Assembly (NCBI RefSeq): GCF_030651755.1
Contig: NZ_JAUSBZ010000022.1
Coordinates: forward strand, 1 to 33,614
Length of the DNA: 33,614 nt
Source of the DNA: Phenylobacterium sp.
GTDB taxonomy: Bacteria; Pseudomonadota; Alphaproteobacteria; Caulobacterales; Caulobacteraceae
Direction: 5' to 3'
Made by a program: the position numbers and the translations under genes. Shown here piece by piece: positions 6,617 to 13,175 of this stretch. Position 1 is the first letter of the stretch. Every line of letters starts with the position of its first letter. Under the pieces are notes generated by a model, which made no database searches, had not been told where the DNA came from, and saw only the letters and a list, made by a program, of their open reading frames with translations.

Positions 6617-7555
6617 ATGGCCACGCAGGCCGCCGATCCCATCGTCATCGACGCCGCCGGTGTGCGCGAGAGCCTGACCTACGCCGCGGCGATCCCCGTG
6701 GTGCGCGAGGCGATGGTCGCGCTCTCCGATGGCCGGGTGCGCCAGCATCTGCGCAGTTTCATCGGCCTGGGGGAGGGCCGCACCTTCGCCATCATGCCCG
6801 CGGCCCTGTCGGCTGACGGCGTCTTTGGCGCCAAGCTGGTCAGCGTCTTTCATGACGGAACCGGCCGCAAAGCCCATGAGGGCCTGGTGGTGATCTTTGA
6901 CGGCGCCACCGGGTCGCCGGTCTGCCTGGCCGATGCGGCCGAGGTCACCGCCATCCGCACCGCCGCCGCCAGCGCCGTGGCCACCGACGCCCTGGCCGCC
7001 CCGGGCGCGCGCAGCCTGGCCATACTGGGCCTGGGCAAGCAGGCCCTGGCGCATCTGGAGGCCCTGAGGCTCGTTCGCCCGCTGGACGACATCCGGGTCT
7101 GGGGCCGGGACTATGCCCGCGCCCGGGGTTTCGCCGAGCGCCATGGCCTGCGCGCCTGCGCGACGGTGGGCGAGGCGGTGGACGGCGCAGAGATCATCTG
7201 CACGGTGACCGGGGCGGTCGATCCGATCCTGGAGGGGCGTCTGGTCTCGCCCGGCGCCCACGTCAACGCCGTCGGCTCCAGCGGGCCTGGACAGGCGGAG
7301 ATCGACACCGACCTGGTGACCCGGTCCCGCTTCATCGTCGACCACCGCGAGCATGTGCTGGCCCATGGGGGCGAGTTCCTGCGTTCGGGTCTTCCCGCCG
7401 ATCACATCGCCGCCGAGATCGGCGAGGTGCTGGCGGGCGCAAGGCCTGGCCGCACCGCCGCCGACCAGATCACCATCTACAAGTCCCTGGGTCATGCGGC
7501 CCAGGACCTGGCGGTCACAGACTGGCTCTATCGCCAGAAGGACAAGCGACCATGA
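6617..7555 (+). CDS. Ornithine cyclodeaminase / mu-crystallin family protein (first copy)
   Basis: 312 residues, usual for the family. Visible: Lys73 in FGAKLVSVF, Arg114 in EVTAIRTAAASAVATDALA, the Rossmann NAD(P) motif ILGLGKQA (about 136-143), GAHVNAVGSS, and the catalytic-type Asp in EIDTDLV. The C-terminal IYKSLGHAAQDLA is also typical. Members include ornithine cyclodeaminase, alanine dehydrogenase and cyclic-imino-acid reductases, all cytoplasmic, so the exact reaction cannot be chosen. The start is the ATG at 6617 after a GAGGGAGG ribosome site. Its stop overlaps the permease start by 4 bases (ATGA), and a paralogue follows the permease. Family assignment is firm, substrate open. Confidence 0.92.
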   Translation: MATQAADPIVIDAAGVRESLTYAAAIPVVREAMVALSDGRVRQHLRSFIGLGEGRTFAIMPAALSADGVFGAKLVSVFHDGTGRKAHEGLVVIFDGATGSPVCLADAAEVTAIRTAAASAVATDALAAPGARSLAILGLGKQALAHLEALRLVRPLDDIRVWGRDYARARGFAERHGLRACATVGEAVDGAEIICTVTGAVDPILEGRLVSPGAHVNAVGSSGPGQAEIDTDLVTRSRFIVDHREHVLAHGGEFLRSGLPADHIAAEIGEVLAGARPGRTAADQITIYKSLGHAAQDLAVTDWLYRQKDKRP

Positions 7556-8877
7556 GCGAGCCTGCGCCGCCTGCCTCCGATACGACCGGAATGCTCCACA
7601 GGGGCGTCGATCTCTGGGCGGTGATCTCGCTTGGCCTGGGGACGGCGGTGGGGGTGGCCATCTTCTCGGTGATCGCCCCGGCCACGGCGCTGGCGGGACC
7701 CGGCATGCTGCTGGCGGTGCTGATCGCCGCCGTGCCGATGTTCGTCATCGCCGTCACCTACGCCTTCATGGGCTCAGCCCTGCCGACCTCGGGCGCCTCG
7801 TTCGAGTGGTCGCGGCGGTTCGTCAGCCCCTTCCTCGGCTTCATGATCGCCTGGCTGCGCATCGTCTCCAATCTCGGCGCCATCCTGGTCCTGGCCCTGG
7901 TGCTGATCCGCTATCTGAACATGGTGGTCCCGCTGCCCACCAAGCCGGCCATGTTCGTGGTCTTCGTCATCTTCTGGGCGGTGAATATGATCGGGGTCGG
8001 CGTGGCCGGCCGCCTGCAGGTCTTGATGATCGCGGCCATGATCGGCCTGTTCGTCCTGTTCGCCGCCTGGGGGGCGCCGTCAATCGCCCCGCAGGCCTAT
8101 GAGCCGCTGCTGCCCCAGGGCTGGGCCGGGGTCTTCGCCGCCATCCCGCTGCTGATCGGCCTGTTCTTCGGCATCGAATCTTCCACCGAGATCGGCGATG
8201 AGGTGAAGAACCCCCGTCGCACCATCCCGCTGGGCCTCGCCCTGTCGATCCTGACCGCAGTCGCCCTCTATCTGATGGTGGCCGGGGTGACGATGGGGGT
8301 CTTGGGGGCAAGCGCCCTGGGGGCCAGCGACACCCCGCTGCTGGACGCCGCGGAGGTCTTCATGGGGCCGCTGGCCAAGCCGCTGATCGTCACCGCCGCC
8401 GTCGTGGCCATCGGCACCTCGATCAATTCGCTGTTCCTCGGGTTTTCGCGCAACCTCTTCGCCATGGCCCGGGCCGGCATGCTGCCAGCGGCGATGATGA
8501 AGGTGCACGCCCGCACCGGCGCGCCCTATGTCGCCCTGACCGTCATCCTGGTCGGCGCGACCCTGGGCCTGGCCGCGCCGATGAACCTGACCGCCCTGTT
8601 CCTGGCGGTGAATATCCCGACCCTGATCAAGTACGCCGGGGTCAACTTCGCCGCCGCCGTGGTGGTGCGCCGGCACCCGGAGATCTATGAGGCGGCCACC
8701 TTCCGCCTGTCCAAGCGGGCCACCCTGTTCTGGGCCTATGCCGGCACGGTGATGGCGGTGATTGTCGCCCTGTTGGGCCTGGGCGCCGACTGGACTCCGT
8801 ATGCGGCCCTGGGCGTCTGGGCGGTGTTGGGGACCGGCTACTACGTGGCCTTCGTCCGCAAGCGCGAGGTCGCCTGA
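7552..8877 (+). CDS. APC-family amino-acid permease
   Basis: 441 residues with about 12 hydrophobic segments. The first helix carries the Gly-rich GLGTAVGVAIFS motif typical of APC-superfamily amino-acid/polyamine transporters, and the EVKNPRRTIPLGL loop is also characteristic. It would bring an amino acid or related amine across the inner membrane. Start and stop overlap the neighbouring OCD genes (ATGA at 7552 and TGATG at 8875-8879), so the three are probably translationally coupled. This implies that transporter and OCD enzymes handle the same or related compounds. Confidence 0.93.
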   Translation: MSEPAPPASDTTGMLHRGVDLWAVISLGLGTAVGVAIFSVIAPATALAGPGMLLAVLIAAVPMFVIAVTYAFMGSALPTSGASFEWSRRFVSPFLGFMIAWLRIVSNLGAILVLALVLIRYLNMVVPLPTKPAMFVVFVIFWAVNMIGVGVAGRLQVLMIAAMIGLFVLFAAWGAPSIAPQAYEPLLPQGWAGVFAAIPLLIGLFFGIESSTEIGDEVKNPRRTIPLGLALSILTAVALYLMVAGVTMGVLGASALGASDTPLLDAAEVFMGPLAKPLIVTAAVVAIGTSINSLFLGFSRNLFAMARAGMLPAAMMKVHARTGAPYVALTVILVGATLGLAAPMNLTALFLAVNIPTLIKYAGVNFAAAVVVRRHPEIYEAATFRLSKRATLFWAYAGTVMAVIVALLGLGADWTPYAALGVWAVLGTGYYVAFVRKREVA

Positions 8878-9815
8878 TGCGGGTCATCGGCCAGGAGGAG
8901 GTCCGCGCGCGTCTGACCTACGAGGTCTGCATCCCTATCGTGCGAGCGGCCATGATTGCGCTCTCTCGTGGCGAGACCCGCCAGCTGCTGCGCTCGATCA
9001 TCCCCCTGGCCCAGGGACACATGTTCGGGGTCATGCCCGGCGCGCTGGGGGAACGGGCCTGTTTCGGGGCAAAGCTGGTCAGTGTGTTTCCGGAGAACTT
9101 CGCCCAGGGCCGCCAGTCCCACCAGGGTGTGGTGGTGCTGTTCGACGGGGAGAGCGGCGCCTCGATCTGCGTCGCCCATGCCGGCGAGATCACCGCCATC
9201 CGTACGGCGGCGGCCAGCGCCGTGGCCACTGACGCCCTGGCCCGTCCCGAGGCTCATCGGCTGGCTATTCTGGGCTATGGCGAACAGGCCAGAACCCATC
9301 TCCGGGCCATTTCCAGAGTGCGGCGACTGACCGACGTCCGGGTCTGGGGCAGGGACCTCGCCCGCGCGGACGCCTTCGCCGAGGCGATGTCCGCCGAGAC
9401 CGGCCTGGCCGTGCGGGCCTTGGCCGGGGCGCGAGCGGCGGTGCAGGACGCCGACATCATCTGCACCCTCACCAGTTCGAAGACCCCCGTGCTGCACGGC
9501 GCCTGGGTGGAGGCCGGCGCCCACGTCAATCTGGTCGGGTCGAGCTATGCCGGCCCTGTGGAGGTTGATCACGATCTGGTGGTCCGCGCCCGCCTGATCG
9601 CCGACAGCCGCGAGGGAGTCCTGGCCCAGGGCGCCGAGGTGCTGGCCGCCAAGGCCGCCGGGCTGATCGATGACAGCCACGTGGTCGGCGAGATCGGCGA
9701 GGTGCTCGATGGCCGCCTGGCCGGCCGGCAGTCCCCCGACCAGGTCACCGCCTACAAGTCCCTGGGACACATCGTACAGGACCTGGCCAGCGCCCAGGCC
9801 CTGATGGAGCTCTAG
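8877..9815 (+). CDS. Ornithine cyclodeaminase / mu-crystallin family protein (second copy)
   Basis: 312 residues, clearly paralogous to the copy at 6617-7555. Shared segments include FGAKLVSVF, AIRTAAASAVATDALA, RVWGRD, GAHVN.VGSS and YKSLGH..QDLA. NAD(P) binding is indicated by AILGYGEQA, and the acidic residue is kept in VEVDHDL. It starts inside the stop of the permease gene and ends 9 bases before the M61-like peptidase gene, so it sits in one operon with both. Two equal-length copies flanking a permease could form a hetero-oligomer, act on two substrates, or catalyse consecutive steps; the sequence does not decide. Confidence 0.92.
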   Translation: MRVIGQEEVRARLTYEVCIPIVRAAMIALSRGETRQLLRSIIPLAQGHMFGVMPGALGERACFGAKLVSVFPENFAQGRQSHQGVVVLFDGESGASICVAHAGEITAIRTAAASAVATDALARPEAHRLAILGYGEQARTHLRAISRVRRLTDVRVWGRDLARADAFAEAMSAETGLAVRALAGARAAVQDADIICTLTSSKTPVLHGAWVEAGAHVNLVGSSYAGPVEVDHDLVVRARLIADSREGVLAQGAEVLAAKAAGLIDDSHVVGEIGEVLDGRLAGRQSPDQVTAYKSLGHIVQDLASAQALMEL

Positions 9816-9824
9816 ACCCCCCTC

Positions 9825-11522
9825 ATGAACGCCAAGTCCCTGATCCTTGCCGCCGCCCTGTGCCTGGGCGGCCTTCCCGCCGCCGCAGCCGAGCCAGCGG
9901 CGCTCACCGTCCGCATCGCGCCGGGCCAGATGGATGAGGCCCGGGGCCTCGGTCATGTGGACATCACCTTGACGCTGTCGGACGTCGACGCCGCGGCGGG
10001 CGAGGTTCTGGTCAGCCTGCCCATCGTCATCGCCAATACCGAGACCGCAGCCGAACATCTGATCGGGCTGACCGCCCGGGACGATCAGGGGCGCGTTCCC
10101 CTGCAGGTGCGCGATGATCCCGAGGCCCTGGTCTATTCGCGCCACTGGCTGGCCGGCCGACCGGTGAAGGGCGAACTGGTGGTCAGCTATCGCGCCCCCA
10201 TCGACAACACCCCGCCGCGGCGGGGATCAGGTCCGCCCTATCAGCTGCGGACAGAGGGCGGGGGCTTCTCGGCCGTGGGCAACACCTTCCTCCTGACGCC
10301 CCAGGGCGGCCGTGACTATCGCGTCGCCATCGACTGGGATCTCAGCGCCATGGGGCCAGGCGCCTCGGCCACCTCCAGCTGGGGGGAGGGCGATGCGGTC
10401 CTGCCCGGGGCCGGCCCGGCTGAACGCCTGTGGTCGGGGGTCTTCATGGCGGGGCCCATGAAGCGCTATCCGGCCGAGCCCCAGAACAACGGCTTCTCCG
10501 CCGCCTGGCTGGGCGAGCCGCCCTTTGATCCGGCGCCGCTCATGGCATGGACCGAGACCCTTCACACCTGGATGAGCGGTTTCTTCCAGGAGACCGAGGA
10601 GCCGCCCTACCGGGTCCTCCTGCGGTTCAACCCGATCAACGCCGGCGGCGGGGCGGCCCTGACCAACTCCTTCCTCACCACCTACGGCCAGGCCACGACG
10701 GCCGAGAGCATCAAGGGCACGCTCGCCCACGAGATGATCCACACCTGGACCTCGCTGGGTCCTGGCCAATGGTACTCCGAGGGTAATGCGGTCTTCTATC
10801 AGGCCCAGCTGCCCTGGCGGGCGGGGCTGATCTCCACCGAAGACTATCTGCAGGACATCAACGACACCGCCCGGCGCTATTACACCAACGCCCTCAACGA
10901 CACGCCCAACGACCAGATCGCCGCCCGCTTCTGGGAGGACACCCGGGTCCGGACCCTGCCTTACGACCGGGGCGGCCTGTACTTCGCGGTGCTGAACGAT
11001 CGCATCCGCAAAGCCTCCGCCGGTCAGCGATCGGTGGATGACCTGATCCTGGCCATGATCGCGCGGCGCCGGGCGGGCCTGCCGGTGAGCGAGGCTGACT
11101 GGCAGGACCTGGTGGTCGCCGAGCTGGGGGAGGCGGGCGGCCAGCTCACCGCCGACATGTTGGCGGGCGGTCTGATGCTGCCGGAATCGGACGCATTTAG
11201 CCCCTGTTTTGCGCGCATAACCCGCCCTTTTCGCCGCTTTGAGCTGGGGTTTGAACCCCGGTCCCTGGTCGGTCACGTCAAGACCATCGCCGGTCTTATG
11301 CCGGGCTCAGAGGCCGAGAAGGCCGGCCTGAGAAACGGCGATGTGGTGACCTATGCGGTGGCTATGGATTCGGTGCAGGGCGATCCCGACCGCACCCTGA
11401 CCCTGCAGGTGACCCGGGACGGCGAGACCTTTCCCATCACCTATCTGCCCCGCGGCGACTGGGTGGAGGCCTACCAGTGGGTCCGCAAACCCGAGGTTCC
11501 CGAGGCCGCCTGTCGGCCGTGA
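9825..11522 (+). CDS. M61-like exported metallopeptidase with C-terminal PDZ-like domain
   Basis: 565 residues with a signal peptide ending near residue 22 (AAA|EP). The zinc motif is HEMIH (His302, Glu303, His306) with Glu319 in WYSEG as the likely third ligand, the gluzincin arrangement found in M61 peptidases. The N-terminal ~200 residues look like the beta-rich M61 N-domain. Residues about 470-545 resemble a PDZ domain (GLMPGSEAEKAGLRNGDVV). M61 enzymes are aminopeptidases, so a periplasmic aminopeptidase role is inferred. It follows OCD copy 2 by 9 bases and is probably the last gene of that operon. A shorter paralogue lies at 15258-16793. Confidence 0.83.
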   Translation: MNAKSLILAAALCLGGLPAAAAEPAALTVRIAPGQMDEARGLGHVDITLTLSDVDAAAGEVLVSLPIVIANTETAAEHLIGLTARDDQGRVPLQVRDDPEALVYSRHWLAGRPVKGELVVSYRAPIDNTPPRRGSGPPYQLRTEGGGFSAVGNTFLLTPQGGRDYRVAIDWDLSAMGPGASATSSWGEGDAVLPGAGPAERLWSGVFMAGPMKRYPAEPQNNGFSAAWLGEPPFDPAPLMAWTETLHTWMSGFFQETEEPPYRVLLRFNPINAGGGAALTNSFLTTYGQATTAESIKGTLAHEMIHTWTSLGPGQWYSEGNAVFYQAQLPWRAGLISTEDYLQDINDTARRYYTNALNDTPNDQIAARFWEDTRVRTLPYDRGGLYFAVLNDRIRKASAGQRSVDDLILAMIARRRAGLPVSEADWQDLVVAELGEAGGQLTADMLAGGLMLPESDAFSPCFARITRPFRRFELGFEPRSLVGHVKTIAGLMPGSEAEKAGLRNGDVVTYAVAMDSVQGDPDRTLTLQVTRDGETFPITYLPRGDWVEAYQWVRKPEVPEAACRP

Positions 11523-11527
11523 GGGAC
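11507..11527. repeat. 21-bp direct repeat, left copy
   Basis: Perfectly identical to 12435-12455. It begins CGCCTGTCGG, ends GTGAGGGAC, and contains the last codons and the TGA stop of the M61-like gene. With the right copy it brackets the prlF-yhaV module and its promoter. Flanking bases differ on both sides of the two copies. Confidence 0.9.
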
Positions 11528-11542
11528 GGCCGCCGACCTGGG

Positions 11543-12031
11543 CTAAGCTGGTCTGACTGATGCTGCGCCCAGACGCTTCTGGGCTTCCGGTTCGCTCGCG
11601 GCTGCAAGGAGCGCCGCCCAGTCATCTGGCGGATCGCCCTTGTCGAGCATCTTGCGGAACACCGCATAGGCGTCCGACTTTGAACCATAGGTGCGCAGCG
11701 TGGTCTCGTCGTTCACCCAGACATAGAGGATGATCTTCGAACGCGTGCTGTAGCGGAAGAAGAGGCGGAACCGACCCGCGCCGAACTTCGCTCTGAACCA
11801 GTTCTTCCGGTCACGGCCCCGGGTTCCGCCCTGCCGATATTCAGGTCGGGTTGGGTCCTGTGGGATGACTTCGAATACAAGGTGACGCAGGGCCGCGAGC
11901 AGCTTCGCATTGGCTGACCCGCGCCAGCCCTCAGGATCTGTTTCTCGTTGGCGTTCGACGGCGTTCGCGAGCCTCTCGAACTGATCGAGAAACAGCGGGT
12001 GAGTCACCAACTGCCACCCGTTGACGACCAT
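11543..12031 (-). CDS. yhaV: YhaV-type ribonuclease toxin
   Basis: 162 residues from the ATG at 12031 (MVVNGWQL), which matches the start of YhaV toxins (E. coli YhaV is of similar length). Landmarks are HPLFLDQFERL, PTRPEYRQGG, WFRAKFGAGRFRLFFRY and YVWVNDETTLRTYGSKSDAY, the RelE-like RNase core. In known systems YhaV cleaves mRNA on or near the ribosome and is neutralised by PrlF. An in-frame upstream ATG at 12067 would overlap the antitoxin gene and is less likely. The start lies 1 base after the antitoxin stop, so translation is coupled. It converges on the M61-like gene with a 20-base gap. Confidence 0.93.
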   Translation of the reverse strand: MVVNGWQLVTHPLFLDQFERLANAVERQRETDPEGWRGSANAKLLAALRHLVFEVIPQDPTRPEYRQGGTRGRDRKNWFRAKFGAGRFRLFFRYSTRSKIILYVWVNDETTLRTYGSKSDAYAVFRKMLDKGDPPDDWAALLAAASEPEAQKRLGAASVRPA

Positions 12032-12032
12032 T

Positions 12033-12359
12033 CTAGAGATCGACCGCGCCGTCGATCGGCGCATCAAGATCGACCTCAGTATCCCCCGCCAGCGCAGTGA
12101 GCCGTGCGGCGAGTTCCGGAGAGAGTTCGGAGAGTCGCTCGGGCCGATGGACGATGTCTTCGGCCAGGAAGGTCAGAAAGCCGCTGATCGCTTCGTCGTC
12201 ATGTTCGACATCAACCCGATGCACTGAAACCCCCCGCTCATCCACACGAAAGGAAATCTTGTCGCCGTAGTCTACGCCGAGCGCTTGGCGAACGGACTTC
12301 GGAATGGTCGTCTGACCCTTGGCGGTGATGGTGCTGACTTCTTCGAGCAGTGTGGACAT
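12033..12359 (-). CDS. prlF: PrlF (SohA) family antitoxin
   Basis: 108 residues from the ATG at 12359, with GAGGAG about 7 bases upstream. The N-terminal AbrB/MazE-like swapped-hairpin DNA-binding domain is clear (STITAKGQTTIPKSVRQALGV...GDKISF). The acidic C-terminal half (EHDDEAISGFLTFLAEDI) would bind and block the toxin. In the E. coli system PrlF and the PrlF-YhaV complex repress their own promoter; here a palindrome lies inside the promoter. A longer open frame extends to 12467 but runs through the promoter and repeat, so the internal ATG is chosen. Confidence 0.93.
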   Translation of the reverse strand: MSTLLEEVSTITAKGQTTIPKSVRQALGVDYGDKISFRVDERGVSVHRVDVEHDDEAISGFLTFLAEDIVHRPERLSELSPELAARLTALAGDTEVDLDAPIDGAVDL

Positions 12360-12380
12360 GGTGGGGCTCCTCAATCGGCA

Positions 12381-12412
12381 ATATAAGTAAGGAATATGCC
12401 TTACCTGGTCAA
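12381..12412 (-). promoter_or_regulatory. prlF-yhaV promoter with internal operator palindrome
   Basis: On the minus strand, TTGACC (12412-12407) is followed after 17 bases by TACTTA (12389-12384), with TATA-rich sequence just beyond. The palindrome GTAAGG-6-CCTTAC occupies 12387-12404, filling the spacer and touching the -10. This is the expected position for autorepression by PrlF or the PrlF-YhaV complex. Confidence 0.6.
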
Positions 12413-12434
12413 GGCGCGGGGCGCCTGGCCTTGA

Positions 12435-12455
12435 CGCCTGTCGGCCGTGAGGGAC
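12435..12455. repeat. 21-bp direct repeat, right copy
   Basis: Perfect copy of 11507-11527, 907 bases of intervening sequence later. Here it is not part of a recognisable gene; it carries a stranded copy of the M61-like gene's stop region, upstream of yceI. Confidence 0.9.
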
Positions 12456-12557
12456 CCATGGCGCCACAGGCTTCGACCTTGGCGCGGGCGACCTCTATGC
12501 TTACCTCCGCAAGCTGGCCGCCGAAGGCGCCGGCCAAGCAACATTGAGAGGTCGATC
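12456..12557. other. Short region between right repeat and yceI, possible gene remnant
   Basis: A plus-strand frame runs from after the TGA in the repeat (about 12453) to a stop overlapping the yceI start. It has protein-like composition (GFDLGAGDLYAYLRKLAAEG) but no start codon of its own. It could be the tail of a lost gene or chance coding in GC-rich DNA. It also holds the yceI ribosome site GAGAGG. Confidence 0.3.
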
Positions 12558-13175
12558 ATGAAATCCCACCTGTTGGCCGCCGTGGCGGCGATTGTCCTGG
12601 CCTCGCCTGTCATGGCTCAGGCGCCGGCCATGCCGGGCCAGCCGGAAGCCTCCCGCGTCGTGGCTGGCAGCTACAAGGTCGACACCAACCACACCCAGGT
12701 GGTCTGGTCGGTGGATCATATGGGCTTCTCCACCCTCTACGGCATGGTCGGTGAGATGACCGGGACCCTGAACCTGGATCCCGCCAACCTGGCGGCCGCC
12801 AGCCTGTCGATCGACATTCCCCTGTCGGGCCTGACCGTCACCTCGGAAGGCTTTGCGAAGCACCTGGCCTCGGCCGACTTCTTCGAGGTGGAGACGTTCC
12901 CCACCGCCAAGTTCGTGTCGACCTCGGTGGTCGCCAACGGCAATGAAGCGAAGATCACCGGCGACCTCACCCTGCACGGCGTCACCAAGCCGGTGGTGCT
13001 GGACGCCAAGCTGATGGGGGCCGGCGCCAATCCGATGAGCAAGGCCCAGACCGTGGGCTTCACGGCCACCTCGACGCTCAAGCGCAGCGACTTCGGCCTG
13101 GGCTACGCCGCCCCCGTCGTCTCTGACGAAGTGAAGCTGAAGATCACCGCGGCCTTCGAACTGGCCGCTTCCTAA
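12558..13175 (+). CDS. YceI family exported lipid-binding-type protein
   Basis: 205 residues from the ATG at 12558 (GAGAGG ribosome site). The signal peptide ends near residue 21 (VMAQA). The body is a YceI lipocalin-like barrel: YKVDTNHTQVVWSVDHMGFSTLYG at the start, then ASADFFEVETFPTAKF, GDLTLHGVTKPV and the S-x-L-KRSDFGLGY stretch, all family hallmarks. YceI proteins bind polyprenoid or amide lipids in the periplasm. It appears to stand alone, between the toxin-antitoxin module and a convergent amidohydrolase, with a strong hairpin after it. Confidence 0.94.
   Translation: MKSHLLAAVAAIVLASPVMAQAPAMPGQPEASRVVAGSYKVDTNHTQVVWSVDHMGFSTLYGMVGEMTGTLNLDPANLAAASLSIDIPLSGLTVTSEGFAKHLASADFFEVETFPTAKFVSTSVVANGNEAKITGDLTLHGVTKPVVLDAKLMGAGANPMSKAQTVGFTATSTLKRSDFGLGYAAPVVSDEVKLKITAAFELAAS

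Follow-up and report, generated by a model that had tools for sequence, protein, structure and literature searches.

Restriction-modification (RM) systems are described as inserting with long and variable target duplications, of the order of 100 bp (PMC3874152; PMC3031569), an insertion mode that the passages of these papers concerned with it trace to Nobusato et al. 2000 and Furuta et al. 2010. The relevant part of PMC3874152 ascribes such insertion to RM systems, and places toxin-antitoxin (TA) modules on mobile elements or at regular chromosomal positions. A standing question is how TA modules in chromosomes can spread without a mobile element to carry them; no TA module with such target duplications was recognised in the titles and abstract openings of the literature searched. 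Here we describe a PrlF-YhaV operon, lying between two perfect 21 bp direct repeats in a 33,614 nt stretch of DNA from Phenylobacterium sp. (contig NZ_JAUSBZ010000022.1, positions 1 to 33,614; hereafter the window). It is probable that this is a foreign operon that inserted with a 21 bp duplication, as one case of a recurring process in which the module brings no recombinase of its own and a variable length of target is duplicated. The window would preserve a recent-looking event with its footprints intact.

The two copies of CGCCTGTCGGCCGTGAGGGAC are identical at 21 of 21 positions, begin 928 bp apart and are followed and preceded by different bases (Table 1). When the whole window was scanned with up to three mismatches allowed, only these two sites were found, compared with a mean of 0.01 in shuffled sequences. 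A search of the source genome (3.24 Mb in 164 contigs) with a 1,071 bp stretch matched its own place alone, although a lone 21 bp copy elsewhere would escape it. The original prediction had described the left copy as the end of the M61-like gene, the right copy as having no gene attached, and the intervening sequence as the toxin, the antitoxin and their upstream region alone, all of which was confirmed: the left end of the insert lies 15 bp beyond the stop codon of the toxin gene, and its right end 75 bp upstream of the antitoxin start. The antitoxin is encoded just upstream of the toxin on the same strand, with 1 bp between its stop codon and the toxin start, which was chosen by us for its position beside that stop; the full open reading frame (ORF) extends from 11543 to 12067. 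The PF11663 match in this toxin covers positions 2-137 of 138. On the basis of family matches and gene order, the pair is assigned to the PrlF-YhaV type II TA systems, and the near-palindrome GTAAGGAATATGCCTTAC is likely to be the operator of the antitoxin gene. The insert is foreign-looking in its G+C content. Pfam scans of 26 window ORFs, the toxin and antitoxin included, gave no match to a transposase or recombinase family; 47 ORFs of at least 180 aa were listed, and shorter ones mostly fell outside the scan. There are no tRNA genes in the window, the folding energies of the junctions are no stronger than those of shuffled sequence, a phage collection contained no match to the insert, and viral contigs searched with the operator pattern yielded nothing.

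Table 1. Features of the PrlF-YhaV locus and its neighbours, in window coordinates
Feature	Position	Strand	Remarks
M61-like peptidase gene	9825..11522	+	ORF; PF05299 E 6e-5; 3' end with stop codon is the putative target
Left copy of putative 21 bp target duplication	11507..11527		Contains the final codons of the M61-like gene and its stop
Insert, 907 bp	11528..12434		Missing in L002-L005; G+C 0.61, against 0.67-0.69 in flanks
YhaV-family toxin	11543..12031	-	PF11663 E 3.9e-54, 182.9 bits (cut-off 35); ATG at 12031, stop TAG 11543-11545
PrlF-family antitoxin, 108 aa	12033..12359	-	PF15937 E 6.3e-23, 81.3 bits (cut-off 32)
Near-palindrome, 18 bp	12387..12404		Upstream of the antitoxin; putative operator
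Right copy of putative 21 bp target duplication	12435..12455		Detached from any gene; 102 bp before the yceI-type gene
YceI-family gene	12558..13175	+	PF04264 E 1.7e-44; also the right neighbour in L002-L005

A scan with the M61-like protein found 26 loci, and nucleotide matches were inspected for nine of these (L002-L010). In all four in which both the end of the M61-like gene and the yceI side could be aligned (L002-L005, two from named Phenylobacterium and two from Caulobacteraceae, at 88-92% identity), the two sides directly adjoin at a single copy of the repeat, which joins the M61-like gene to the sequence beginning at 12456, as anticipated for insertion at the 3' end of the peptidase gene with duplication of the target. 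The more distant L006 has no match to the insert, nor to yceI at that place; L007 ends within the M61-like gene, and L008-L010 match more distantly only. The single copies differ from the window copy at 4, 4 and 3 positions in L002, L004 and L005 respectively, and at more in L003. PF11663 is present in 8/101 genomes of the genus and 9/398 of the order, these samples overlapping. Given the empty sites, the identical copies in the window, the low G+C of the insert and the rarity of PF11663, one recent gain in the window lineage appears to be favoured over loss. That the relatives carry one copy speaks against the alternative first considered, in which the module was captured by recombination between repeats already in place. 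Exact loss of the module through recombination between the 21 bp copies is plausible.

The same arrangement, which it had been suggested might be sought at other prlF-yhaV loci, recurs. Fifty-three PF11663 loci were collected from genus, order, class and phylum samples, with two matches below the cut-off excluded; leaving out the four at contig edges, a close direct repeat surrounds the module in six of 49 (the window, G702, G540, G509, G1080 and G939). Single-copy sites are found in relatives for four of the six, the window among them. With larger flanks, tight repeats were found in 5 of 45 loci (the window excluded, and seven of the 53 loci not having been re-fetched), against an expectation of 0.13 for modules of equal size placed randomly in the same regions, which is slightly low as placements near the real module were scored as misses. 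The corresponding Poisson P of ~3e-7 is optimistic, because the limits defining 'tight' were set after the first hits had been seen. As a background rate, two comparable repeats were found in 256,889 start positions over 22 loci, both in L013. On the toxin tree, six label changes are needed to account for the six tight-repeat rows among 48, the loci being scattered. The repeats are 21, ~29, ~88 and ~203 bp long where single-copy sites are known, and ~31 and 48 bp where identified by geometry only; by inspection they are different sequences at the six loci, and the targets differ. The six inserts, of 877 to 1,096 bp, have no shared ends or motif and no terminal inverted repeats, the inverted-repeat score of the window insert being 4 against a null mean of 5.0 and those of the five others 4-5. 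In this respect the suggestion of an unusual mechanism, made from the window repeat alone, is borne out by duplications varying from 21 to ~203 bp and by inserts lacking common ends.

In G702, an 88 bp repeat of 96.6% identity is located close to the 3' end of a gene that we take to be pabB-like, whose reading frame now continues into the insert and terminates in another short tail. Of five genomes from the same genus, G1181 aligns straight through with one copy, whilst in G515 and G830 a single copy is present and the alignment to the right flank picks up again only at some distance; in G622 the module occupies the corresponding position, with just one copy visible, and G1182 stops at a contig edge. 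The stretch matching the repeat is 82% identical in G515 and 74% in G830. At two of the three positions at which the G702 copies differ, the base of the gene copy agrees with the relatives and the change is in the detached copy; the third position shows yet another base in the relatives. As the gene copy retains the relatives' base at two of three differences, the repeat is read as a copy of the host's own target. In G540, a 203 bp repeat at 88% identity spans a stop codon; amongst six other genomes, G1189 could be aligned on both sides and has one copy, G785 carries a single copy, on the gene, and is unalignable to its right, three have no match, and G1188 has the module between two copies, its insert being common with that of G540. 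The ~29 bp repeat of G1080, at 90% identity, is present as one copy in both of the viral loci returned (2/2), at a point where two consecutive genes overlap, stop codon with start codon; both G1080 copies keep this overlap, and only a short end of the left gene remains. The repeat of G509 is an exact 48 bp match across a stop codon, and that of G939 is 31 bp at 87% identity. A stop codon is thus included in the repeats of the window, G509, G540 and G1080, a bias towards gene ends that may reflect selection rather than target choice, since insertions sparing their neighbours are likelier to survive.

Other candidates were set aside. L055 (G437, reverse complement 643-2494) has its prlF-yhaV insert bracketed by a 137 bp, 91% identical duplicate of a gene 3' end with its stop codon, and was kept out of the tight count because its insert is ~1.6 kb. 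The repeats of L082, at R gap 724-801, may be local repetitive sequence, and those of L072, L086 and L100 are weak or loose; a 71 bp repeat at L046 was an artefact of overlapping search windows, and a 119 bp repeat at L069 a contig-edge coordinate artefact.

A number of observations weigh against a recurring insertion process of this kind. No tight repeat was found in 43 of the 49 prlF-yhaV loci, nor in any of the 8/8 plasmid loci fetched, from 191 matching plasmid records, and a flanking repeat was not seen at the prlF-yhaV locus of E. coli K-12. Under the same criterion, control toxin families gave 1/29 for PemK (L200) and 1/29 for ParE (L143), and 6/49 does not significantly exceed these 2/58 (Fisher p 0.09, or 0.15 when the window is left out). 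In G509, no single-copy site was found in eight other genomes of the family, so that duplication there is supported by geometry only, as it is in G939. Between G540 (L071) and G1188 (L173), the two copies within each genome are 0.88-0.89 alike, compared with 0.79 for the two right copies, a pattern that points to gene conversion within each pair of copies or to repeated events and complicates the history. No donor was found close enough for junction microhomology to be assessed, the best DNA relative compared being 76% identical (L062), and the tree of the M61 region did not resolve.

Because the excess over the PemK and ParE controls is not significant, the tight-repeat signature may belong to TA modules at large and not to PrlF-YhaV alone. 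The ParE module at L143 (G492) is flanked by a 27 bp, 93% identical direct repeat, and may have arisen through a similar event in a second TA family; at L200, the flank of the PemK module contains a further related copy. The loci without repeats may have been inserted long ago, belong to larger elements or have been acquired in some different way. In E. coli, a garD-prlF-yhaV-agaR query was covered to at least 80% in 5,074 of 5,426 genomes; strain PMV-1 (L171) is without prlF-yhaV between garD and agaR, having a different spacer with no repeat visible. The PMV-1 and K-12 (L170) alleles, as judged from these sequences, differ by replacement and not by a repeat-flanked insert, and this locus tells little about the question of insertion.

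The process proposed is that a minimal, self-contained and foreign PrlF-YhaV operon entered the window lineage at the stop codon of the M61-like gene, with 21 bp of target being duplicated as it did so. Elsewhere, too, a bare TA unit of ~0.9-1.1 kb would insert with a variable target duplication and no recombinase of its own, often at a gene end, such that the neighbouring genes are left whole or nearly so. The likeliest route would be a non-homologous event at two offset breaks, the 21-200 bp between them being copied twice, or a replication template switch to the donor, with return behind the point of exit, which would likewise copy 21-200 bp twice. From the known biology of TA systems, addiction would then select against loss of the module. 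A transposase with a fixed duplication length and att integration are both disfavoured, as the lengths vary approximately tenfold, there are no shared ends and the targets differ. These observations suggest that gene pairs like PrlF-YhaV can move without the usual DNA-moving enzymes.

Amongst other explanations, end joining by Ku and LigD might have trapped a TA fragment at a staggered double-strand break, the overhangs being filled in. The variable length of the duplications suits fill-in of staggered ends, and Ku is encoded in the window genome (G000), as in 17 of the 44 genomes searched; however, it was not found in G702, G509, G540, G1080 or G939, which makes Ku-dependent joining not required in general. 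Ku may have been present in these genomes in the past, and we regard this explanation as unlikely. A single crossover with circular DNA carrying both the TA operon and homology to the gene end would likewise produce direct repeats of variable length and leave gene ends intact, and circles would also arise through recombination between existing repeats. This is somewhat less likely again, for the G702 copies are 96.6% alike when G515 and G830 match at only 82% and 74%, which indicates that the second copy came from the host gene, and foreign circles carrying just the end of a host gene would be improbable at six unrelated targets.

Very little probability attaches to movement of the module, as a non-autonomous element, by a transposase acting in trans: a module that sits cleanly in a duplicated target and encodes no transposase does resemble such an element, yet none of the six inserts has terminal inverted repeats or ends in common with the others, and the duplication is not of fixed length, ranging from 21 to ~203 bp. 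Equally improbable is that the module is ancestral and was lost in the relatives. A single copy is just what recombination between direct repeats would leave behind, and one loss is compatible with the M61-region tree as it stands, but PF11663 is found in so few genomes of the genus, L006 too is without a match to the insert, and the window copies are identical to each other where the single copies of the relatives have diverged, in addition to which the G+C of the insert is low. Islands moved by tyrosine recombinases typically duplicate the 3' end of a gene, so the footprint in the window could be taken for att-site integration at the end of the M61-like gene followed by deletion of the integrase part; this we consider highly improbable, the repeats at the six loci differing in both sequence and length, with no integrase amongst the 26 window ORFs scanned and no tRNA gene in the window. 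Least credible is an assembly artefact, as although 21 is a common word size of assemblers, and their usual smallest, and the assembly is in 164 contigs, the TA segment would have to carry an identical 21-mer at each end in its true source, and elsewhere the repeats are longer and imperfect with inserts common to relatives (G622, G1188).

To the right of the insert, the sequence from 12456 to 12557, between the right repeat and the yceI-type gene, is conserved in L002-L005 and by eye resembles a short protein tail, GFDLGAGDLYAYLRKLAAEGAG; it is perhaps a gene relic or a small ORF. The start of the YceI-family gene given in Table 1 is an ATG chosen by us, the listed ORF beginning at 12447. To the left of the M61-like gene, members of the ornithine cyclodeaminase/mu-crystallin family are encoded at 6617-7555 and 8877-9815, on either side of an amino acid permease gene.

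The insertion of a foreign PrlF-YhaV operon with a variable target duplication would extend to a TA family the insertion mode described for RM systems. The signature, in which direct repeats of varying length lie tightly around the module and relatives have a single copy, can be counted across genomes, and the mechanism becomes testable through the junctions, the duplication lengths and the gene-sparing bias. More tentatively, type II TA operons such as PrlF-YhaV might themselves be units of mobility, inserting as bare operons at gene junctions through a shared pathway without recombinases and independently of Ku, with a variable target duplication that spares neighbouring genes; they would then be mobile elements lacking an integrase, in parallel with RM systems.

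Amongst chromosomal TA modules that are present or absent between conserved genes is ccdO157 of E. coli, which lies in the folA-apaH spacer, and the window module is similar to it in this regard; we know of no report of a target duplication at ccdO157. The ccdO157 module is named in PMC2654758. The prlF-yhaV locus of E. coli K-12 has the same gene order, with the antitoxin first, and differs in that no flanking repeat was seen. The likeness to RM insertions, as these are outlined in the papers cited above, is in a selfish unit unlinked to any known mobile element, a variable duplication, and recognition through related genomes. As in those insertions, single-copy sites are found for the window, G702, G540 and G1080, and the length of the duplication varies. 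Unlike them, the cargo is a type II TA operon of PrlF and YhaV, the duplications are as short as 21 bp, and recurrence is in several alphaproteobacterial and other proteobacterial genomes. With these differences, the insertion in the window appears to fit the mode of long and variable target duplication rather than that of a fixed-length transposon or of att integration.

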